Below, piece by piece: positions 13,122 to 50,109 of a DNA stretch of 64,000 nucleotides. The DNA is from a virus. How positions within the stretch are numbered: the first letter of the stretch is position 1; the number at the start of each line of letters is the position of its first letter. The notes below the pieces were generated by a model that saw nothing but the letters and a program-made list of their open reading frames with translations, was not told where the DNA came from and made no database searches. Location: the IMG/VR virus record IMGVR_UViG_3300027906_003011, positions 1 through 64,000 of that record; one strand, written 5' to 3'. A program made the translations under genes and the position numbers.

Positions 13122-14363
13122 TTGTCTAAAATAGCAGTAAATTCTTGGGACGAGTTCCAACCTCTTAAAACCGTAATGGTTGGAAGTGTGTTTGAAGATG
13201 AGTTCCTTGCCCCTATTAAGAATAAAACTATCAAAGAGGGCTTAGGTAAAATATTACGAGAAACACGTGAAGATATAGAATATTTTAAAGAAACACTATT
13301 AACTCATGGTATTGATGTAATACAGCTTACACCAAAAGAATTAGGCTATCAAGATAGCATTTTAGACTATGCTGACTGGCAAACAGGTGAAATAGGTGTT
13401 AGTAGCCCTTTAGAACACTTTCCTGAAGCTAGTAACTTTGGACAAAACCATTCAAACATACGATTATCACGTGATTCTAGTACAGGAATACCACAACCAC
13501 CATTAGCTATTAGAGATGACGCTCTTGTAATGGGTGATAAAATACTAATTACACAGGCACACGTTTACAGTACTAACTTGTCAGCTATAAAGTATAAAGA
13601 AATGTTTGGTGAAGATGCTATTGATAATAGCATATATGAGAAAGATATAGAATTTAAACGTAGTGTAAAAAATATTCAAAGCTGGGCAGATAGACATAAG
13701 TTAAACATTGATCCAGAAGATATTGAGGCACTAGAAAAAATGAGAACAGAGCAACCACTTAATGGTTGGTGTGCTCCAAACTTAACAAGATTAGGAAATA
13801 AAGTTTTAGTAGATGTGTGGCAAACACCAGAAGTAGTAGAAGAATTTTTAGAGCCTAACTACAAAAACTTTGACTTCCATAAAATTTTTATAGGCGGACA
13901 TAACGATAGTGTGTTTAGTGTAGTTCGTCCTGGATTGGTAATTGCTACTCCTTGGTTCAAACCATATGCTGACATTTTTAAAGGTTGGGATATTATTTGG
14001 TTTGATCAACCTAGCTGGACAAAAGAAGTAGATACAGCAATTAAATTAAGACATAATAACCAAGGTTGTTATTGGTCACCTGAAGTAAATGAAAATCCAC
14101 AGTTAGAAAGTTTTATTAATCAATGGTTAGACAATTGGCACGGACAAGTTGACGAAACTATTTTCGATGTTAATGTTTTAGTCATTGATGATAAGCACGT
14201 TGTCATTAATAGTGACGACAAAAATCTTAGAAGCCAACTTGAACAAAGAGGAATTACTCCAATTTTTGTTCCACTAAGGCATCGTTTCTTTTGGGACGGT
14301 GGTTGGCATTGTAACACATTAGATATCCACAGGCAAGGGAACCAGACAGATTACAATTTGTAA
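13122..14363 (+). CDS. Glycine amidinotransferase-like enzyme, copy 1
   Basis: 413 residues, TTG start at 13122 (MSKIAVNSWDEFQPLK, collinear with copy 3 at 48925). The amidinotransferase fold transfers the amidino group of Arg to an amine. Landmarks: NSWDEFQPLKTVMVGS at the N-terminus, FIGGHNDSVFSVVRPG (catalytic His), and DGGWHCNTLDIHRQ near the C-terminus (nucleophile Cys). The position of the family's catalytic Asp (in DAADFxRxG of human AGAT) reads CAPNLTRLG, so the Asp seems replaced by Asn or shifted. Three divergent copies sit in this window; the acceptor amine is unknown. Confidence 0.85.
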   Translation: MSKIAVNSWDEFQPLKTVMVGSVFEDEFLAPIKNKTIKEGLGKILRETREDIEYFKETLLTHGIDVIQLTPKELGYQDSILDYADWQTGEIGVSSPLEHFPEASNFGQNHSNIRLSRDSSTGIPQPPLAIRDDALVMGDKILITQAHVYSTNLSAIKYKEMFGEDAIDNSIYEKDIEFKRSVKNIQSWADRHKLNIDPEDIEALEKMRTEQPLNGWCAPNLTRLGNKVLVDVWQTPEVVEEFLEPNYKNFDFHKIFIGGHNDSVFSVVRPGLVIATPWFKPYADIFKGWDIIWFDQPSWTKEVDTAIKLRHNNQGCYWSPEVNENPQLESFINQWLDNWHGQVDETIFDVNVLVIDDKHVVINSDDKNLRSQLEQRGITPIFVPLRHRFFWDGGWHCNTLDIHRQGNQTDYNL

Positions 14364-14400
14364 TCTTTTGTAATATTGGGCAAAAAATCTAAAATAAGAG

Positions 14401-14431
14401 TTGACAATTACTTTTTGTTATGTTATAAATA
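14401..14431 (+). promoter_or_regulatory. Overlapping sigma70 and late promoter for the tmRNA
   Basis: TTGACA at 14401-14406, 17-base spacer, TATAAA at 14424-14429. The -10 is embedded in TATAAATA (14424-14431), the T4 late motif. The gene may therefore be transcribed both early and late in infection. Confidence 0.85.
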
Positions 14432-14440
14432 TAGTCGTAA

Positions 14441-14745
14441 CGTTGAAGCAAATTCAACTCTATTCAGGACCCCGGGGCGGTACCGGGCGGCTCCACCAAA
14501 AACTTCGTTCACTCAAGACACATGGTCTGAGATGGGTGTGACTTGAGGGGCCGAACTAGGATCGACTGGTAGGTATTAGATTTAGTGGAGTTACCGGTAG
14601 GCGATGACCGTAAATCAAGCAACCTTATAAACGCAAACGATAATTTTGCTAATGAGGATTTTGCCTTAGCGGCATAATCACTCGGGGTTTAGAAGAGCCT
14701 GGCAACAGAATTCTTTAGTGGGTGTCCCTTTAGTTAGGGGCACCT
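14441..14745 (+). ncRNA. ssrA: Circularly permuted two-piece tmRNA (alphaproteobacterial type)
   Basis: tmRNA rescues stalled ribosomes and tags the nascent protein for proteolysis. The acceptor piece comes first: T-stem CCCGG/CCGGG (14471-14475 with 14483-14487, loop GGCGGTA), then CGGCTCC plus ACCA at 14488-14498. A spacer follows with a hairpin CTCAAG/CTTGAG (14512-14547). The coding piece begins with GGGGCCG at 14547, which pairs with CGGCTCC to give a 7-bp acceptor stem containing G3:U70, the alanine identity pair. The tag ORF at 14633-14677 encodes ANDNFANEDFALAA and a TAA stop, matching the alphaproteobacterial ANDNF...AA pattern. A 9-bp hairpin (14721-14744) ends the transcript region. 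Exact mature ends are estimates. Confidence 0.92.
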
Positions 14746-14795
14746 ATGATACTATAGTAAGAAAACAATATTGTTTTATTTTAAAGGAAAAACAT

Positions 14796-15692
14796 ATGAA
14801 AAAACTACTAATAGCCACAACAGCTCTTTTCATGACATTTTTCGTCACGACAGCATCAGCTGATATGAACGTATACGGTTCATTAAACTATATGATGTCT
14901 AACGATGATAATGCTTCTGGAGAGTCTGTGTTAAAGGCACAAAACAACGGATCTAAGATTGGTGTTGATTTCTCTGAAACTTTAGGTGAAGGTGAAACTG
15001 GCATTACTGGATTTGGTAAACTAGAAGTTGGCATCGATGCTGACGATTCGGGATCTGATACATTTGATTCTAGACTTGCTTATGTAGGTGTGGACTTAGA
15101 TGGCTTAGGTGCTGTATCTGGCGGACGTCAAGAGAACCCAGGAGCAGGTGTTAGTAAAACAAACATATTTAACGTATACGGTGGCAATGCTGTATTTAAA
15201 TATGCTGACAGAACATCTAACACAGTAAAATACTCTAATTCAATTGGCCCAGTTTCTGTAGATGCTATGGCAATGATTGATGGAGCGACTGGAAAAGATG
15301 GCTTAGATGTTACTGACATCTCAGCATCAATGGACTTAGGTCCAGTAGCAGTAGCTGGCGGTTTGATTGACGATAAAGTCAATAACGTTAAATACCAAAT
15401 TGCTTCAGCAGGTGTAGACGTTGCTGGTATTTCTTTAGCGGGTACTTACTCACTAAAAGATACTACAACAACTGACCTAACTGGTATGGAGTATTCAGCA
15501 TCTAAAGTAATCGGCGATTCAACTTTGATGGTTAGCTTACAAGATAAAGAAGGAACAGCAAATTATATGACTTACGGTGTAAGCCATAATTTCTCAAGTT
15601 CTTTAACTGGATATGCTGAGTATCAATCAACTGATAACGATACTGGTGTAGATACTACACAAATGGCAATGGGAATGAAATTTTCATTCTAA
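14796..15692 (+). CDS. Outer-membrane porin (Gram-negative porin family)
   Basis: 298 residues from the ATG at 14796, preceded by AAAGGA. A typical signal peptide (MKKLLIATTALFMTFFVTTASA, cut after ASA) is followed by DMNVYGSLNYMMS, the first porin strand. Many alternating beta strands end in a C-terminal MGMKFSF, with the terminal Phe needed for BAM-mediated insertion. It likely forms a 16-strand trimeric channel. A phage-encoded porin could replace the receptor porin of the host (superinfection exclusion) or alter nutrient uptake. It has its own strong terminator. Confidence 0.9.
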   Translation: MKKLLIATTALFMTFFVTTASADMNVYGSLNYMMSNDDNASGESVLKAQNNGSKIGVDFSETLGEGETGITGFGKLEVGIDADDSGSDTFDSRLAYVGVDLDGLGAVSGGRQENPGAGVSKTNIFNVYGGNAVFKYADRTSNTVKYSNSIGPVSVDAMAMIDGATGKDGLDVTDISASMDLGPVAVAGGLIDDKVNNVKYQIASAGVDVAGISLAGTYSLKDTTTTDLTGMEYSASKVIGDSTLMVSLQDKEGTANYMTYGVSHNFSSSLTGYAEYQSTDNDTGVDTTQMAMGMKFSF

Positions 15693-15761: not shown

Positions 15762-16535
15762 ATGTTAGCTAACTTTCAATTTAAAGCAGGAATGGGTGGA
15801 CACTTCTTTTTACGTCTGCTTGTTTACCGTTGGGGATATGGTCCAATGCCTAGGGCTAACAGCTATTGGAATGAATATCACTTTCCAATAGAACTATGGC
15901 ATTTAGAAAAATTCTATCGACTTCAAATCGATTTACCATACGGCGAAGAATGGTTTGATTGGGAAACAGGAAGAGGTTTTGAATACGATCCTGCTGTATT
16001 AGAAAAATATTTAGAAACATTTGAAATAAAAAACAAAGAAAATTTGTTTATGTTAGACCATGCTGTTTGGCCAGGTCTAAAAGAATCCTTTCAAAAAGTA
16101 AAAGGAATTGAATGCCCAAACATTTCTATCACAACAAAAATTTTTGATACGGCAGTTTCCTGTAGAATCCTTAGAGATATAAAAAGTCAATGTAAAGATT
16201 TTTATAATTTAAGAAGCCCAGCAAACAATCATTTAAGAGAAAAAGAAATTTGGTTTGCTGAAGGTCCAGGATTAAGAGAAATGGAAATTCATCCAGTTGA
16301 ATATAGTTTAGAAGAAAATTCAGCATTACAAAAAAGTATTGAATTAGAATATGCTCATGCTGATATGGTTTTAGATTATGATAAGTTAATAGCTGGTGAC
16401 ATTTCAGCATTTCAACAATTAGATGATTACTATAAACTTAAACCAGCAGTAGAAGATCAAAATATTATTACTTTAATAAATTTTTATAATAGAGATAACG
16501 ATCGATTGATAAAAGAATTACTTGGTAAAACATAA
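15762..16535 (+). CDS. Hypothetical protein, sulfotransferase/P-loop-like N-terminus
   Basis: 257 residues. The N-terminal FKAGMGGHFFLRLLVYRW has the shape of the variant P-loop (GxGGxFL) of sulfotransferase-like phage proteins. The same pattern is in the proteins at 51263 (PGSSGQFFSRLW) and at 61191 on the minus strand (STGGYGIARTI). Trp- and Tyr-rich first half, acidic helical second half. TAATG overlap with the amidinotransferase that follows suggests a joint role. Confidence 0.6.
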   Translation: MLANFQFKAGMGGHFFLRLLVYRWGYGPMPRANSYWNEYHFPIELWHLEKFYRLQIDLPYGEEWFDWETGRGFEYDPAVLEKYLETFEIKNKENLFMLDHAVWPGLKESFQKVKGIECPNISITTKIFDTAVSCRILRDIKSQCKDFYNLRSPANNHLREKEIWFAEGPGLREMEIHPVEYSLEENSALQKSIELEYAHADMVLDYDKLIAGDISAFQQLDDYYKLKPAVEDQNIITLINFYNRDNDRLIKELLGKT

Positions 16536-17575
16536 TGGAAAACTGTTTTCATAATTGGGGTGAACTTAAAACTGTACTACTAGGAGACGTATTACCGTCA
16601 AGTGTATACGAAGGTTTGTCGCCTAGTGTTAAAAATTGTTTAACTCAAATAACTGAAGAAACTCAAGAAGACTTACATAATATGGCTTCTGTAATGGAAG
16701 AATATGATATTAAAGTTTTACGTCCTGATGTTAACAATTATATGAAAAAACAAAACTTTACGTTAGCAGAAGAAACTATAGCAGAACGTAAAAAGTTACC
16801 AGGTCAACCTTTTGCTGTTCGTAACCATTTATTACGTTGGCACGATAAAATATTTGTTGGAGCCAATTGGGCTTGGGAAGATTATGCTGAAGAAGTTTTA
16901 AAACCTTGGAAAGATGATGTTATAATTTTTGATTATTTCTGTGCTAGTGATATATTTAGATTAGGTAAAGATTTAATCATTGATACAGAAAATAAAGATA
17001 ACATACCTTTTGTAGAATGGCTTAGAAAGTATAAAAAGCTACACGGCTTAGATGTAAACATACATACAGCTGGTATGGGCAGTCATAGTGATAGTAGTGT
17101 ATGTCCTGTTAAACCTGGAATGCTTTTAACACGATTTGAGATAGATCATTATTCAGATACTTTTGCTGGTTGGGAAATAGACAAATTACCTCATTACATA
17201 CCAAGCGACTTAGATAGATATCACCGACTATGGGAAGATTTTAGTTTTAAACTAACCCACGAACCTGAACAAGAAGCAGTAGACTTTATTCAAACATATC
17301 TTAAACATTGGATAGGATATAGCGAGGAAACTACATTTGAAGTTAATATGCTACACTTAAACCCTGAAACAGTTATTACTAGCCATGCTAACAATAGTGT
17401 CACAAAAATGTTAAATAACAATGGTGTTGAAGTAATACATTGTCCTTTAAGACACAAATATTTTTGGGACGGAGGAAGTCATTGTGTTACTTTTGATATA
17501 GATAGGGTAAGTGAAGCTGAAGACTTATTCGGTCATACCACCGATATAGACTTCGGCGACTTATGGAAGGAATAA
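16535..17575 (+). CDS. Glycine amidinotransferase-like enzyme, copy 2
   Basis: 346 residues, the shortest of the three copies. Catalytic landmarks: CASDIFRLGKDLIID (Asp present here), GMGSHSDSSVCPVKPG (His) and WDGGSHCVTFDIDR (Cys). This copy keeps the full Asp-His-Cys set, so it is the best candidate for an active enzyme. The start overlaps the stop of the preceding gene (TAATG). The substrate may be a phage-specific small molecule. Confidence 0.85.
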   Translation: MENCFHNWGELKTVLLGDVLPSSVYEGLSPSVKNCLTQITEETQEDLHNMASVMEEYDIKVLRPDVNNYMKKQNFTLAEETIAERKKLPGQPFAVRNHLLRWHDKIFVGANWAWEDYAEEVLKPWKDDVIIFDYFCASDIFRLGKDLIIDTENKDNIPFVEWLRKYKKLHGLDVNIHTAGMGSHSDSSVCPVKPGMLLTRFEIDHYSDTFAGWEIDKLPHYIPSDLDRYHRLWEDFSFKLTHEPEQEAVDFIQTYLKHWIGYSEETTFEVNMLHLNPETVITSHANNSVTKMLNNNGVEVIHCPLRHKYFWDGGSHCVTFDIDRVSEAEDLFGHTTDIDFGDLWKE

Positions 17576-28489: not shown

Positions 28490-28547
28490 TTGTAATTTTA
28501 AAAAAAAGTGTTATATTATATACATACAGAGTAAATCTGTATAAATA
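28490..28547 (+). promoter_or_regulatory. Sigma70-like promoter plus late promoter TATAAATA for hsp20
   Basis: A weaker sigma70 promoter, TTGTAA (28490-28495) with TATATT (28512-28517) or TATTAT (28514-28519), is followed by a perfect late motif TATAAATA at 28540-28547. Hsp20 would be made both early and late. Confidence 0.7.
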
Positions 28548-28551
28548 AATG

Positions 28552-28574
28552 TGTACGCCGAATGTTCGGGTACA
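28552..28574 (+). promoter_or_regulatory. Hairpin in the hsp20 leader
   Basis: TGTAC (28552-28556) pairs with GTACA (28570-28574), and CCGAA with TTCGG inside, with one bulged G. It could be a 5'-end stabiliser or a simple thermosensor; it lies 33 bases before the ATG and does not sequester the RBS by itself. Confidence 0.45.
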
Positions 28575-28607
28575 ATAATGTTAACTTGCTTAATAAAGGA
28601 GAAAACA

Positions 28608-29036
28608 ATGACAAACGCAAGACTATCTATCTTTAATCAACTTAAACCATTCACTGTAGGATTCGACGATATGTTCAGTCATTTTGAACAAATGACGGAT
28701 ATGCCACAAGTGAATTTTCCACCATACAATATCGTAAAAACAGGTGACTTCACATATGATATCGAAATGGCTTTAGCCGGTTTTGGCAAAAAAGACATTG
28801 AGGTAAAATATGCTGATAACAATTTGACTGTTAATTCAGTTCAAAATGAAAAAGACGAAAACGAAGATCCAAGTGTAATACACAGAGGAATTTCAAAACG
28901 TCAATTCAAACGTTCTTTTACGATTGCTGATGATGTGGTAGTAAATGGAGCCGAGTTGAAAGATGGCCTATTGAAGGTATCATTGGAAAAGATTGTTCCA
29001 GAGGCCAAAAAGCCAAGAACAGTCGAAATTAAGTAA
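28608..29036 (+). CDS. Small heat-shock protein (Hsp20 / IbpA-like)
   Basis: 142 residues from the ATG at 28608 (AAAGGAG upstream). The alpha-crystallin domain runs from about residue 38 (YNIVKTGDFTYDIEMALAGF) through RQFKRSFTIADDV to GLLKVSLEKIVPE, the conserved GxLxI-type motif, here LLKVSL. ATP-independent chaperone. Hsp20 is common in marine T4-like phages, where it is thought to assist capsid or replication protein folding. Own terminator at 29052. Confidence 0.93.
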   Translation: MTNARLSIFNQLKPFTVGFDDMFSHFEQMTDMPQVNFPPYNIVKTGDFTYDIEMALAGFGKKDIEVKYADNNLTVNSVQNEKDENEDPSVIHRGISKRQFKRSFTIADDVVVNGAELKDGLLKVSLEKIVPEAKKPRTVEIK

Positions 29037-31721: not shown

Positions 31722-32629
31722 TGTTTCCATATATAGGTGGTAAAAAACAACACAGCAAATGGATAGATCCATTCTTTCCTGAGAACACTACAAAGTATAT
31801 AGAAGTGTTTGGCGGTGCTATGTGGATGTACTGGATGAGCGGAAAGCTACCTGCTACTGTTAATGTTTATAATGACTTTAATAGACATTTAGCAAACGTG
31901 TTCTTATGTAGCAGTACAGATCCTGCTAAAATGGAACAAACTTGTTTAAGCTATTATAAAGACATAGGCAATGGAGATAAGTTTATAGAATATAGAGATG
32001 AAGTATTTGCTATCTATAATCAAAAATTTCCTATACCAGATTACGATTTAGCCGCGAAGTATATGTTATTACAGATGCAGATATTCAGTGGCGGTAATGG
32101 TTTAACAAAAACAACAAAGATGTATCACAACGAAAACTATAAACCAAAGTTCAAGACTTTTACAGAAAAGTTTCAACAAGTTAAATACTTGGACAAGTTA
32201 AGTCACTTAACAGTTGAGAATATGGATTGTAGAGATTTAATTAGAAAGTATGATCATGCTGACACATTTTTCTATATTGATCCACCTTATTTTAAACTTG
32301 AAAGTTATTATACAGAAGATGAATTTGGTAAACTTGATCATATAGAATTATTAGAAATGTTAAAACATACTAAAGGTAAATGGGCATTAAGCTATTATCA
32401 TTTTCCTGAATTAGAAACTATGTTACCTAGAAACAAATACTATTGGCATGAAGAAGTTACATATACTAATAACGGACTTAAAAAACAAGAAGGAGCAGTT
32501 CGTAAAGATGGTAAAATGGGTACAGGTATAAGACCTGAACGTACTGAACTATTAATAATGAATTACAATCCAGAAGATGTTGTAGAACCAATGAATAACT
32601 TTAACGAACTGTTCGAGGAAGGAGCATAA
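31721..32629 (+). CDS. Adenine-specific DNA methyltransferase (D12/Dam class)
   Basis: 302 residues. PYIGGKKQHSKWI is motif X/I of the D12 class, YIEVFGGAMWMYW the FxGxG-type SAM motif, and FFYIDPPYFKLESYY contains the catalytic DPPY. The family methylates N6 of adenine, often in GATC. GATC sites are frequent in this window. TAATG overlap on both sides. Confidence 0.88.
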   Translation: MFPYIGGKKQHSKWIDPFFPENTTKYIEVFGGAMWMYWMSGKLPATVNVYNDFNRHLANVFLCSSTDPAKMEQTCLSYYKDIGNGDKFIEYRDEVFAIYNQKFPIPDYDLAAKYMLLQMQIFSGGNGLTKTTKMYHNENYKPKFKTFTEKFQQVKYLDKLSHLTVENMDCRDLIRKYDHADTFFYIDPPYFKLESYYTEDEFGKLDHIELLEMLKHTKGKWALSYYHFPELETMLPRNKYYWHEEVTYTNNGLKKQEGAVRKDGKMGTGIRPERTELLIMNYNPEDVVEPMNNFNELFEEGA

Positions 32630-33324
32630 TGATATTCAAATCTTCCCAAGACACATACGATTTTACCAGCCTAAAAGATGTAAGCAAAATTGCTATTAAA
32701 GTATCCGGTGGCCTTGATAGTGCTGGAGTATCTTATATGATATTTAAAACTATACACGAACAAAACCTAGATGTAGAAGTTGTTATTGTAACAACAGATT
32801 ATGATACTAAAGCATATCAGGTAGAGTTTGCTACAAAAGTTATTAAATGGTTACAAAAAGAATTTCCTAGTGTAAAAGTAATAGACCATATAACAAATAT
32901 GAGATCAGGTGATATGGATTATTCAGATACACAAGATCTTATTTTAGATCAAGCATATAATAATACTTGTAATGATGAACCAGGCCACACAGGTGTACAA
33001 CGACATTATATGGGTTTAACACAAAACCCACCTAAAGAAGTACACGAACAATTTGACGAAGATGGAACAGATCCATTGTTGTATGAGAGGCATGGTGTAT
33101 TTGATCAATTTAATAACGACGGGTGCCATCCGGGTTATAGACCTTTTATTAATACAGATAAAAAAGGTGTAGCAGAAATCTATAATCAATTTAGTCTAAT
33201 GGAACCTGGCAGTTTGTTTGATCAGACAAGAAGCTGTGAAGCATATACAACCGACTTTAGTCATCATTGTGGAGAATGTTGGTTTTGTAAAGAACGTGAG
33301 TGGGGCTTTGGCAGGACTGATTAA
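32629..33324 (+). CDS. QueC-like PP-loop ATPase, copy A
   Basis: 231 residues. IKVSGGLDSAGVSYMIF is an SGGxDS pyrophosphate-binding loop of the N-type ATP-PPases. The C-terminal HHCGECWFCKEREWGFGR with an upstream Cys (RSCEAYTT) resembles the CxnCxxCxxC zinc site of QueC (7-cyano-7-deazaguanine synthase). The sequence between them differs from bacterial QueC. It may take part in base modification of DNA or tRNA. Directly follows the DNA methylase and precedes a second copy. Confidence 0.75.
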   Translation: MIFKSSQDTYDFTSLKDVSKIAIKVSGGLDSAGVSYMIFKTIHEQNLDVEVVIVTTDYDTKAYQVEFATKVIKWLQKEFPSVKVIDHITNMRSGDMDYSDTQDLILDQAYNNTCNDEPGHTGVQRHYMGLTQNPPKEVHEQFDEDGTDPLLYERHGVFDQFNNDGCHPGYRPFINTDKKGVAEIYNQFSLMEPGSLFDQTRSCEAYTTDFSHHCGECWFCKEREWGFGRTD

Positions 33325-33975
33325 ATGGAAGAGAACTTAATTATTGTAGGTCCGAAGTGGGACCGAAGAGTAATAGATTTAGTTGTACCTAAACATATAG
33401 ATGAAATAGCAGTATTTGTATCCGGTGGAATGGATAGTGCTATTTTATTTTATGCTTTATCTGTAATGAATCCAGCTATAAGCATTAAGACATTTTGTGT
33501 TCCTAGATCGGCAGATGATGCCAAAACTCATTCTCATAATGTACACGACACAGTTTATAGAATGTTAAAACGCCCAGGTTCTGCTCCAGAGCTTATTGGA
33601 ACAGCAGATGAGAAAAACAGTTTAAAACCCACACAAGAATTAGTAGAATCAAACAGATTTAAATTAATATATGATGGAGTTAATCATCAAATACCATTAG
33701 GATTTGATTTCCCTGAGTTTGCTGGATTTAATGATCAGCATAGCAGAGGAGAAAGGCCGTGGAGAGTTATTAGTGATGTTGTGAGAACACCATTTCTACC
33801 TCTTTACAAATACCATATAATAGACTTATTTTATAAGCTACAAGCAGAGGAACTAATAAAACCAACTCACAGTTGTACAGCAAATACCGTAGGAAGGTGT
33901 AATAAATGTATGTGGTGTAAAGAACGTGAGTGGGGATTCAACCAGCTAGGGCTAACAGACCCTGGCGAGTGCTAA
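33325..33975 (+). CDS. QueC-like PP-loop ATPase, copy B
   Basis: 216 residues. FVSGGMDSAILFYALS is the PP-loop; the C-terminus SCTANTVGRCNKCMWCKER is the four-Cys zinc site, with the same CKEREWGF phrase as copy A. The two copies are adjacent without a gap and clearly paralogous. They may form a heteromer. No QueD, QueE or DpdA-like gene is visible nearby. Confidence 0.75.
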   Translation: MEENLIIVGPKWDRRVIDLVVPKHIDEIAVFVSGGMDSAILFYALSVMNPAISIKTFCVPRSADDAKTHSHNVHDTVYRMLKRPGSAPELIGTADEKNSLKPTQELVESNRFKLIYDGVNHQIPLGFDFPEFAGFNDQHSRGERPWRVISDVVRTPFLPLYKYHIIDLFYKLQAEELIKPTHSCTANTVGRCNKCMWCKEREWGFNQLGLTDPGEC

Positions 33976-46031: not shown

Positions 46032-46424
46032 ATGGATAATAAATCATCTCTCGATAACCACTTTTATGTTCCCACCATCAGTGCTGGTTGTAAAAAAGAG
46101 CTACAAGAACTCTCAAAAATTACACCCAGAGAAGGAACAGTTATCTATGACAAAAAATGGAAAACAGATTTAAAAAATGGAAAAGATGTTTTAGATTCAC
46201 ACATAAAAAAGTTTGACATTGAACGAATAATGTTGTATAATACAGCATCACCTAGAGAGATAGAAATAACAGATTTTAAAAAATGCTTTTATGTTAGTAA
46301 CAAAGTAGTTTTAAAAAATAACAAAAAGTATCGACAGAGAGAATATTTAATCACATATGATAAAGAAGAATACATTGATGAAGATACAACACTTGCTGAA
46401 GGAACACTATTAGTATGTTACTAA
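46032..46424 (+). CDS. Hypothetical protein
   Basis: 130 residues, Lys-rich with a central ITDFKKCFYVSNKVVLKNNK. No recognised domain. It contains an internal consensus promoter (46213-46241) that could serve the next gene. Overlaps the next start by 10 bases. Confidence 0.6.
   Translation: MDNKSSLDNHFYVPTISAGCKKELQELSKITPREGTVIYDKKWKTDLKNGKDVLDSHIKKFDIERIMLYNTASPREIEITDFKKCFYVSNKVVLKNNKKYRQREYLITYDKEEYIDEDTTLAEGTLLVCY
46213..46241 (+). promoter_or_regulatory. Internal consensus sigma70 promoter
   Basis: TTGACA at 46213-46218, 17-base spacer, TATAAT at 46236-46241, inside the coding region of the gene at 46032. It would start a transcript for the gene at 46415. A chance match is possible but both boxes are perfect. 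Confidence 0.55.
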
Positions 46425-47362
46425 AGTATATTTTAGGGTCATCAGCACACACTAACGGACTAATTTTTTGTTGTTGGTCTCCAGAGCAAGATTCTAATAC
46501 TAGATCAAAATGTTCTTTTACTGAATCTTTTTTACAAGTGAAGTTTTCAGCTGAACATAAGAATAGTGTTATTATTAATGACGGTAAAGAACCATTAAAC
46601 AGAATACTATGGCACGTTTCTACGATGCCAGGCGCTCCTAAAGTTGTTTGGGTTAAACCTGGGTCACTTATGTATTTTGAAACACTAGATAATATATCAA
46701 ACCAAATGCAGGAAAAATTTGAGAATGATTCTAATACTGAATATGACTGGGGCATGATGAAATCTAGTTTAGGACATTTTGCTATCTTAAACCCCGTACA
46801 CAATGATTGCTTTCAAGGTAGTACTATAGAAGAATGGGAAGAAAAGTGTAAAGCAAATAACTTAAAAGTAGAAGTAGTAGAGCAAAAGGAATCGTTATTC
46901 TTAGAGAAAGACAAGTACGAAGAAAATAGAAAAGACTTTTTAGAATGGGTAGATAAAGCAGAGGTATGGAAGGATAATGAATTTGCTGGACAATATACAG
47001 AGCAAATTAAAAATATGACAGCTTCTGAGCGTGAAGAAATTTTATCTTTTAGAACAAAAACTTTAGTATATTATAAAGGAATGAATATACCAAGCGAATT
47101 TAAGAGTCATTATGATGTTTCATTAGAATTTGATACTATAGAAGAATTAGAAAAAATTATACAAGAAGAAAGAGATAATGTTACGTGGCTATTTGGTTTA
47201 AAATTAACACTTCCTGAGGCATGGTGGCGTTATGGACATTATAGGTTAGAGAAAGTTGCTAAAAGTATGATGGCAACACCAAACTCTATTTTATACGGAT
47301 ACACTTTTGAAAATAACGACATAATAAAAAGTACATTTGGAGATGTAAATATTCATGTTTGA
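46415..47362 (+). CDS. Hypothetical protein
   Basis: 315 residues, mixed alpha/beta, starting LLKYILGSSAHTNGLIFCCW. The middle is Glu- and Lys-rich with coiled-coil character; DVSLEFDTIEELEKIIQEE near the end. No domain recognised. Overlaps both neighbours, so it is translationally coupled to the gene at 47355. Confidence 0.6.
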   Translation: MLLKYILGSSAHTNGLIFCCWSPEQDSNTRSKCSFTESFLQVKFSAEHKNSVIINDGKEPLNRILWHVSTMPGAPKVVWVKPGSLMYFETLDNISNQMQEKFENDSNTEYDWGMMKSSLGHFAILNPVHNDCFQGSTIEEWEEKCKANNLKVEVVEQKESLFLEKDKYEENRKDFLEWVDKAEVWKDNEFAGQYTEQIKNMTASEREEILSFRTKTLVYYKGMNIPSEFKSHYDVSLEFDTIEELEKIIQEERDNVTWLFGLKLTLPEAWWRYGHYRLEKVAKSMMATPNSILYGYTFENNDIIKSTFGDVNIHV

Positions 47363-48572: not shown

Positions 48573-48935
48573 ATGGACATTTATACAATTTACGCTGATC
48601 ATACTGAAGACACTAATGCTTTTGCCTTCGTAAAGAATATGAGTAAGTTCCTAGATCATATGGTTGAACTAGGTAGAATGGAAACTTATAGAATTACAAG
48701 AATGAAGCTAGGTTTTAGAAGTATGGATTTACCAGAATTCCGTATTGATATGGAGTTTAAAAACATGACACAGTTAGATAATGCTATGTCAAGTGTAGTA
48801 ACAAATGAAAAGAACATAGAAAAAGACCATGTTGGCTTTAACCAACTAGTTGATGTTGAAACAATTCAGCATTTCCTTTATAGAGATTTCCCTGATAATA
48901 TTAATGAACATAAAGAGAATATAAATGACAAATAA
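48573..48935 (+). CDS. DUF6614-type protein
   Basis: 120 residues with a perfect AGGAGG RBS. MDIYTIYADHTEDTNAFAF, LDHMVELGRMETYRITRMKL and LYRDFPD follow the pattern I know as DUF6614, a short alpha/beta protein of unknown function in marine bacteria. It overlaps the amidinotransferase copy 3 by 11 bases, and might act with it. Confidence 0.75.
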   Translation: MDIYTIYADHTEDTNAFAFVKNMSKFLDHMVELGRMETYRITRMKLGFRSMDLPEFRIDMEFKNMTQLDNAMSSVVTNEKNIEKDHVGFNQLVDVETIQHFLYRDFPDNINEHKENINDK

Positions 48936-50109
48936 TGTAAATTCCTGGAGTGAATTCCAACCATTAAAGCAGTTAGTAATTGGCACTACTTACCCTCCAG
49001 AGTTCTTTGAAGATGTAAAGAACCCTAAAGCCAGAGACTGCCTCCAACGTATAGCAAGTGAAACACTTGAAGACCTTGACAACCTTAAAAAAGTATGTGA
49101 AGATAAAGGCGTAAAAACTTATACTTCAACTACAGAAGAGCTAGGGTATAAAACTAGCATTATGGACTACCTAGATGACGAAGGCAAAATGGGAATGGGT
49201 AGCGATAAGCATGGTCAACACGAAAAAGGTCGTAATCAGCTTCCTGTACCTCCTCTTAATCCGCGTGATGATTTTGTTACTATGGGTAACCAAGTAGTAA
49301 TGACAGGAAGTGCTTTTGAATCTAAACCTTGGGTTCCTCTTTTTGAAAAATGGTTTGGTGAAAAATTTGATTGGAGTATTGTCAGAGATAAAAAGAAATT
49401 TACTAGAACTACAGCTAATCATAGAAACAGATTAGGTAGACTAGGTGTTAAAGATAGTGACATTGATACATTATTAGAGCTTGAAGCTGAACAGCATACA
49501 CAAGATAGGATGACAGGATTTTGTGCCCCAGAGTTAACAAGAGTAGGTAAGACTTGTTTTTGTGATACTCAACAAGCTGTAGATATTGCTGATTATATGG
49601 AACTAGCATATCCTCAATTTAATTACAAAGGAGTATTCATCGGAGGTCATAATGATGCTGTATTCAATGTATTAAAGCCAGGAGTATTATTAACAACAGA
49701 AGATATTGGCCACTATGCTGAATCGTTCCCAGGATGGGAGAAAATTTATCTCCCTGATAGTAATTTAAACCAAGTAAGACCTTTCTTAGAAATTAAAAGA
49801 CATAATGAAGGAAAATGGTGGATGCCAGGTGAAGAAGATAACAACGAGTTTACTGACTTTGTTGAAACTTGGTTAGAAGATTGGGTAGGATTTGTAGAAG
49901 AAACAGTATTTGATGTAAACTTATTAATGCTTGATGAAAAGACAGCAATAGTAAACGCCGAGAATGCCGAACTTGAGAAAAAGTTTAATGCTCAAGGAAT
50001 TGAGATGATCCATGTACCAAACAGACACAGACATTTCTGGGACGCTGGATGGCATTGTATTACATTAGATATTGAACGTGAAGGTGGACAAGAAGATTAC
50101 GGAGTTTAA
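48925..50109 (+). CDS. Glycine amidinotransferase-like enzyme, copy 3
   Basis: 394 residues. NSWSEFQPLKQLVIGTTYP at the N-terminus is collinear with copy 1. FIGGHNDAVFNVLKPG carries the catalytic His; WDAGWHCITLDIEREG the nucleophile Cys; CAPELTRVG has Glu or a shifted acid in place of the family Asp. Copies 1 and 3 are closest to each other, copy 2 is more divergent. Coupled to the DUF6614 gene and followed after three bases by a radical SAM gene. Confidence 0.85.
   Translation: MTNNVNSWSEFQPLKQLVIGTTYPPEFFEDVKNPKARDCLQRIASETLEDLDNLKKVCEDKGVKTYTSTTEELGYKTSIMDYLDDEGKMGMGSDKHGQHEKGRNQLPVPPLNPRDDFVTMGNQVVMTGSAFESKPWVPLFEKWFGEKFDWSIVRDKKKFTRTTANHRNRLGRLGVKDSDIDTLLELEAEQHTQDRMTGFCAPELTRVGKTCFCDTQQAVDIADYMELAYPQFNYKGVFIGGHNDAVFNVLKPGVLLTTEDIGHYAESFPGWEKIYLPDSNLNQVRPFLEIKRHNEGKWWMPGEEDNNEFTDFVETWLEDWVGFVEETVFDVNLLMLDEKTAIVNAENAELEKKFNAQGIEMIHVPNRHRHFWDAGWHCITLDIEREGGQEDYGV

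Follow-up and report, generated by a model that had tools for sequence, protein, structure and literature searches.

The full transcription unit of a permuted tmRNA occupies positions 14401–14747 on the plus strand of the window, a stretch of 64,000 nucleotides from a 65,954-base IMG/VR fragment of a large virus infecting marine bacteria. The RNA is of the alphaproteobacterial type, is encoded at 14437–14719 (+), and is preceded by a composite promoter in which the sigma70 −35 sequence TTGACA is joined to the T4 late promoter octamer TATAAATA. This RNA type is already known from phage Melnitz and from other phages with two-piece tmRNAs, and 79 phage tmRNAs are found in PMC11915505. What is new here is the pairing of a tmRNA with phage ClpX and ClpP in one lineage, and the finding that the composite promoter recurs before many viral tmRNAs and a small number of other genes. 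The explanation favored, with a probability of about 0.7, is that of a working tmRNA unit that is expressed from early to late infection, rescues ribosomes with host SmpB and directs tagged fragments to ClpXP. The gene, its structure and tag, the promoter pattern, ClpX in the window and, for a near relative, ClpP and gp55 are seen in the sequences themselves; the timing of expression, processing, charging, SmpB binding, tagging, degradation and a gain to the phage are inferred from them. Coordinates are given in Table 1.

Table 1. Features of the tmRNA unit and the phage ClpX and Hsp20 genes, in window positions.
Feature	Position	Strand	Details and basis
Composite promoter	14401–14431	+	TTGACA 14401–14406, 17-nt spacer ending TGT, TATAAATA 14424–14431; direct reading
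Acceptor piece	14437–14498	+	ends ...CGGCUCC-A-CCA; RF04321 and RF01849 alignments, pair counts
Outer-helix strand in acceptor piece	within 14437–14498	+	RF04321/RF01849 alignments
T arm	stem 14471–14475/14483–14487	+	loop GGCGGUA; RF04321/RF01849 alignments
Acceptor 3′ strand	14488–14494	+	followed by A14495 and CCA 14496–14498; CCA encoded
Intervening sequence	14499–14546	+	predicted hairpin stacked on acceptor stem; folds in window and relatives
Coding piece	14547–14719	+	3′ part ends ...CAACAGAA; RF01849 alignment to 14719
Acceptor 5′ strand	14547–14553	+	GGGGCCG, then D-loop-like part
PK1	14595–14620	+	ahead of tag CDS
Tag CDS	14633–14677	+	GCA AAC GAT AAT TTT GCT AAT GAG GAT TTT GCC TTA GCG GCA TAA = ANDNFANEDFALAA-stop
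12-bp hairpin after RNA	14718–14747	+	fold z −2.5
Phage ClpX, 382 aa	24494–25642	+	zinc finger, Walker A GPTGSGKT, pore loop GYVG, RKH loop, IGF loop
Phage Hsp20 small heat-shock protein	28551–29036	+	phrog_432 E 1.5e-45, PF00011

A two-piece tmRNA had been proposed from the sequence, and a covariance-model search confirms it with two Rfam models, both well over their cut-offs. The merged permuted model RF04321 gives 130.1 bits against a cut-off of 47 (E 3.6e-25, 14437–14677), and the alphaproteobacterial model RF01849 gives 124.5 bits against 50 (E 1.7e-33, 14397–14719). ARAGORN also reports a tmRNA at the locus, but places the tag start too far upstream. As read from the sequence and the models, the acceptor piece comes before the coding piece in the gene and the two pair across the intervening sequence. 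The perfect 7-bp acceptor stem described in the original prediction is present (7/7 pairs), its G3:U70 pair is G14549:U14492, and the complete tag is directly readable. With G3:U70 and the encoded ACCA at 14495–14498, the acceptor is tRNA-Ala-like. The tag frame has a resume codon, a stop and the small hydrophobic end ...ALAA-TAA, and these are kept in relatives. The hairpin helix of PK1 is matched by RF04321; the second PK1 helix was recognized by eye only, and shows compensating changes between two relatives (UGU/ACA in L173, UCU/AGA in L123). The terminal hairpin is terminator-like in L174 and L179, two relatives with a T-rich tract behind it; the window has no T run at this place.

The phage RNA resembles the alpha_tmRNA of RF01849 (Caulobacter, Sinorhizobium, Paracoccus) in piece order, the T-loop GGCGGUA, G3:U70, the ANDN... 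tag start and a D-loop-like sequence. Unlike RF01849, it has no 5′ hairpin, and two segments of the 3′ part (27 and 16 model positions) are missing.

The original prediction was held open to refutation by a lack of pairing support in relatives; the pairs are supported there by covariation. Across ten related loci, 23 pairs hold in 97.4% of cells, compared with 84.6% in shuffles, and controls with slid partners are paired in at most 52.4%. Two-sided changes at these loci number 30, versus 10 in shuffles. Covariation is strong among 89 distinct IMG/VR viral tmRNAs: their acceptor and T stems are 100% paired, against at most 89.6% and 74.6% in shuffles, and 89/89 have G3:U70. Viral tmRNAs of the alpha type are common, with at least 120 matches to a single pattern in a scan. 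The intervening sequence of viral tmRNAs is 7–247 nt in length (median 62); in syntenic relatives its letters vary and it folds alike. Similarly, seven relatives form the same terminal hairpin from different arm sequences. The tags of syntenic relatives read ANDNFANED(F/Y)ALAA, ANDNFAYEDYALAA, ANDNVF(H/Y/N)ED(F/Y)ALAA and AKDNVFFEDYAIAA, and none of them has lost the tag frame, the resume region or the degradation end.

On the evidence of its DnaB-type helicase, which is closest to those of jumbo phages PA5oct, Atu_ph07 and Phosso (47–50% identity), the carrier belongs with the relatives of jumbo phages rather than with OM43/SAR11 myophages such as Melnitz. The tmRNA is at the same place in eight IMG/VR relatives (L122–L128, which include overlapping loci, L174 and L179), one of them on a 204-kb contig. 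Its neighbors in these are ribonucleotide reductase, glutaredoxin and mostly then an amidinotransferase-like gene on one side, and a porin-like gene on the other, where the contig extends that far. In the window, the gene behind the tmRNA (14796–15692) encodes a secreted porin-like outer-membrane protein that is kept in relatives and has no Pfam or PHROG match. The amidinotransferase/dimethylargininase-like protein adjoining the tmRNA (13122–14363) is one of three paralogs of phrog_25854, the others being at 16535–17575 and 48925–50109. Elsewhere in the window (32629–33975), two adjacent proteins with weak QueC-like matches are encoded beside nucleotidyl-transferase and dehydrogenase genes.

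Phages often integrate at ssrA and may carry fragments of it, as stated in PMC9004378, and the gene might be a functionless acquisition in passing, for example from such tmRNA-targeted integration. This explanation is already largely refuted and is very improbable: the gene is complete, it has its own promoter and terminal hairpin, its helices show compensatory changes, and its place is kept among relatives whose flanking proteins differ by 15–40%. Two PK1 types (window 14590–14620; L173, L175, L176, L123) are present at one syntenic locus, and both types also turn up in viral tmRNAs elsewhere. They raised the suspicion that relatives have exchanged the tmRNA, which is possible but not required by unrooted trees (AU p 0.09, RNR tree).

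A search of isolate phages with the gene by blastn in 'distant' mode gave no match at 1e-5, and only T-arm fragments at weak E values. The similarity to Melnitz noted in the original prediction is real: the two-piece ssrA of this Methylophilales phage (MZ577097; PMC9004378) matches RF04321 with 113.4 bits. Melnitz is a marine T4-like phage whose tmRNA, like the one described here, is permuted and of the alpha type, and the gene also has a TTGACA-N17-TATAAATA promoter; no SmpB is mentioned for the phage in the available text of PMC9004378. Melnitz differs in phage lineage, in the neighbors of the tmRNA and in the tag, and it has no ClpP. In addition, a glutamine riboswitch directly follows the tmRNA of Melnitz on its 3′ side, whereas none adjoins the tmRNA of the window: RF01739 found no match at E ≤ 1 in 14200–14950, and the Melnitz positive control matched. 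The riboswitch is at 46398–46446 of MZ577097 (locus L460), where the RF01849 match to the tmRNA ends at 46390. It is said to control ssrA but, being 3′ of the tmRNA, more likely acts on genes further downstream, of which the next on the plus strand encodes the late-transcription coactivator.

Sinorhizobium jumbo phage Phosso is like the carrier or its relatives in having a related helicase (46.8%), a permuted tmRNA and ClpP. In contrast to the carrier, its tmRNA is at another place, the tag is ANDNVSTKVALAA, and the promoter match is weaker (TTGACT..TGTAAATA). Sinorhizobium jumbo phage AP-J-162 has been reported to have a tmRNA, ClpX, other Clp proteins and Hsp20, which are not joined together in the part of the report available. 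No tmRNA was found in Atu_ph07 or PA5oct. Several permuted tmRNAs of isolate phages are unannotated or lie under a hypothetical-protein call (PV764938, 349596–350198; OP009285, near 49360–49396; MH015255, near 9231; OP186293, near 3287).

The promoter had been described as a consensus sigma70 promoter combined with the T4 late motif. The −35 sequence and the spacing are consensus and the late octamer is present; the −10 hexamer is not consensus. Read as a sigma70 promoter, the sequence is TTGACA-N17-TATAAA with an upstream TG, and the −10 agrees at 5/6 positions, the final T being missing. The term 'consensus sigma70' therefore applies to the −35 and the spacing only, and a consensus scanner omits this promoter because its −10 is without the final T. 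TTGACA-N17-TATAAATA is kept in syntenic relatives, in which most of the bases around it differ. The octamer at −10 in upstream intergenic DNA is a likeness to T4 late promoters; the difference is that here it is joined to a −35 TTGACA at 17 nt. T4 late promoters need no −35 TTGACA.

The composite form is widespread before viral tmRNAs. Of 94 distinct upstream regions, 43 have the composite form, six have TATAAATA alone and ten TTGAC alone. In 2.08 Mb of loci, chosen mostly for their tmRNA, the composite form occurs 61 times, 56 of these directly before a tmRNA, and TTGAC(A/T)-N16-18-TATAAT occurs 103 times, with two at a tmRNA. The spacing is strict, as 51 of 55 TTGACA..TATAAATA pairs in tmRNA-centred loci are separated by exactly 17 nt, and 48 of these 51 are at a tmRNA. 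Because the 2.08 Mb of loci had mostly been selected for tmRNA, two further IMG/VR scans were drawn on promoters alone. In this promoter-only sample, the composite form stands before a tmRNA in 16/96 usable cases (15/93 sequence clusters). In the controls, a tmRNA follows 0/147 sigma70 TGnTATAAT promoters (Fisher 1.6e-7 against 16/96), 0/217 TTGACA-17-TATAAT promoters and 2/249 TATAAATA octamers without TTGACA. The other 80 of the 96 composite promoters are not at a tmRNA; the main further genes behind the form are those for Hsp20 (13), a gp32-type ssDNA-binding protein (7) and phrog_7759 (6), for which the 147 control promoters gave 1, 2 and 0. Hsp20 and gp32 are enriched, as is the tmRNA. 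Examples of such loci in IMG/VR are L258, L266 and L312. None of the papers searched described the composite promoter form, and its presence before viral tmRNAs appears to be undescribed so far.

This raises the question of whether the octamer is read by a late polymerase or is simply the −10 region of a host-type sigma70 promoter, in which case the RNA would be made early only. The exact 17-nt spacing to TTGACA and the upstream TG are hallmarks of sigma70 promoters, and the Melnitz authors term their ssrA promoter early (PMC9004378). Also, among short tmRNA loci, those with a composite promoter are not richer in other TATAAATA octamers before open reading frames (8/55 loci, compared with 18/46), and a tie of the composite promoter to the late system is therefore not general. 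Against sigma70 use alone, the other sigma70-like promoters in the same 2.08 Mb use TATAAT, and the octamer that is kept matches the late consensus of T4 and, in the phage and its relative, lies for the most part only in intergenic DNA upstream of genes. The five alphaproteobacterial ssrA copies checked, which came from replicons listed as plasmids and do not include hosts of this phage, are without the TATAAATA of the composite promoter, as are eight other phage records with an alpha-type tmRNA. The gp32 gene has the composite promoter as well. An exclusively sigma70 promoter thus seems rather unlikely.

The placement of the octamer points the same way. In the window and the 204-kb relative, TATAAATA is intergenic at 13/17 sites, and one further site of the 17 is the tmRNA promoter itself, overlapped by a spurious open reading frame; other AT-rich octamers are mostly inside genes. 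The other octamers in the window (28540, 35320, 36424/36428, 45060 and 48549) are all intergenic and aimed at a gene start, and include a divergent pair; that at 28540 precedes the Hsp20 gene and has no TTGACA. Only placement is informative, because the total number in the window is not enriched (7, compared with 11.8 expected). A gp55-family late sigma factor is encoded in the 204-kb relative (E 1.8e-24); none was found in the 66-kb record, which is a fragment. The gp32 protein is needed throughout T4 infection, and its composite promoter fits early-plus-late use. Thus, the dual-promoter idea of the original prediction gains comparative support, and late use of the tmRNA promoter by gp55 is likely, judging from these sequence patterns.

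In the favored explanation, host RNA polymerase would start at TTGACA-N17-TATAAATA and a gp55-type late polymerase of the phage probably reads the same octamer as well. We propose that the tmRNA would be made from early to late infection because both may read the octamer. The transcript may start at 14437, as this is 8 nt past the −10 hexamer, and, with transcription starting near this position, 5′ trimming of the acceptor piece may be unnecessary. By analogy with known permuted tmRNAs, excision of the intervening sequence from the precursor would leave an acceptor and a coding piece, joined by base pairing. Alanine would be loaded onto the RNA by way of G3:U70, and host SmpB would bind to it. 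The RNA would free ribosomes that have stalled on non-stop or broken mRNA, a kind of mRNA that should be plentiful when a lytic phage degrades the transcripts of its host, and the phage would presumably benefit. The added ANDNFANEDFALAA tag would then send the fragments to ClpXP, of which both components, ClpX and ClpP, are also encoded in the phage lineage. Like other ssrA tags recognized by ClpX, this tag has LAA at its end.

The ClpX gene is complete in the window, 10 kb from the tmRNA, which according to the original prediction may mark chosen proteins for degradation. The protein scores 424.2 bits with NCBIfam TIGR00382 (equivalog cut-off 370.75) and 455.9 with NF003745 (cut-off 359), matches PF06689 and aligns to solved ClpX. 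The copy in the 204-kb relative is 79.5% identical, and this relative also has a complete ClpP (E 1e-80, with an end-to-end match to solved ClpP). ClpP was not found in the 66-kb fragment. From these sequences we infer that the tmRNA and the phage Clp proteins may act together. It is an even chance that phage ClpX and ClpP instead have a role apart from the tmRNA, in the assembly of virions or the control of replication. Papers on Atu_ph07, AP-J-162 and other jumbo phages note the Clp genes and read them as replication or assembly factors. ClpP is present without a tmRNA in Atu_ph07 and PA5oct, and a tmRNA without ClpP in Melnitz; since each occurs in phages without the other, the two need not act together. 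Speaking for a joint role, the phage ClpX keeps the GYVG, RKH and IGF loops, which serve to handle ssrA tags and to dock ClpP, and the tag has the LAA end.

SmpB and SspB were not found in any record searched, and SmpB must therefore be supplied by the host. The same absence would suit a tmRNA that acts mainly as a decoy or competitor, taking up host SmpB or ribosomes and lowering the action of the host tmRNA. There is a precedent in the DS6A phage tmRNA, a form of which without tag frame inhibits endogenous tmRNA when expressed in E. coli (cited in PMC11915505). Such a role is improbable, as all syntenic relatives maintain a complete tag frame together with the resume region and the degradation end, for which a decoy has no use.

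A wider proposal can be put forward only tentatively, and we consider it doubtful. Perhaps marine T4-like and jumbo phages have in common a small set of composite-promoter genes (tmRNA, Hsp20 and gp32), each with one TTGACA-N17-TATAAATA site read by host sigma70 and then by gp55 polymerase, so that translation quality control would continue across the change of polymerase. For the jumbo branch, the products of the tmRNA would go to a phage-made ClpXP, and the tag-and-degrade pathway of the virus would be complete but for SmpB.

The published guess on how a tmRNA benefits Melnitz builds on an early promoter only. The composite promoter predicts that the tmRNA is expressed from the start to the end of infection. 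With ClpX in the window and ClpP in a near relative, the action of phage ClpXP on phage-tagged proteins is directly testable, and Melnitz and the Sinorhizobium phages Phosso and AP-J-162 are cultivable systems among the isolates. That gp32 and Hsp20 genes have this promoter as well points to maintenance of the machinery for translation and protein quality, and not to a short attack at the start of infection.
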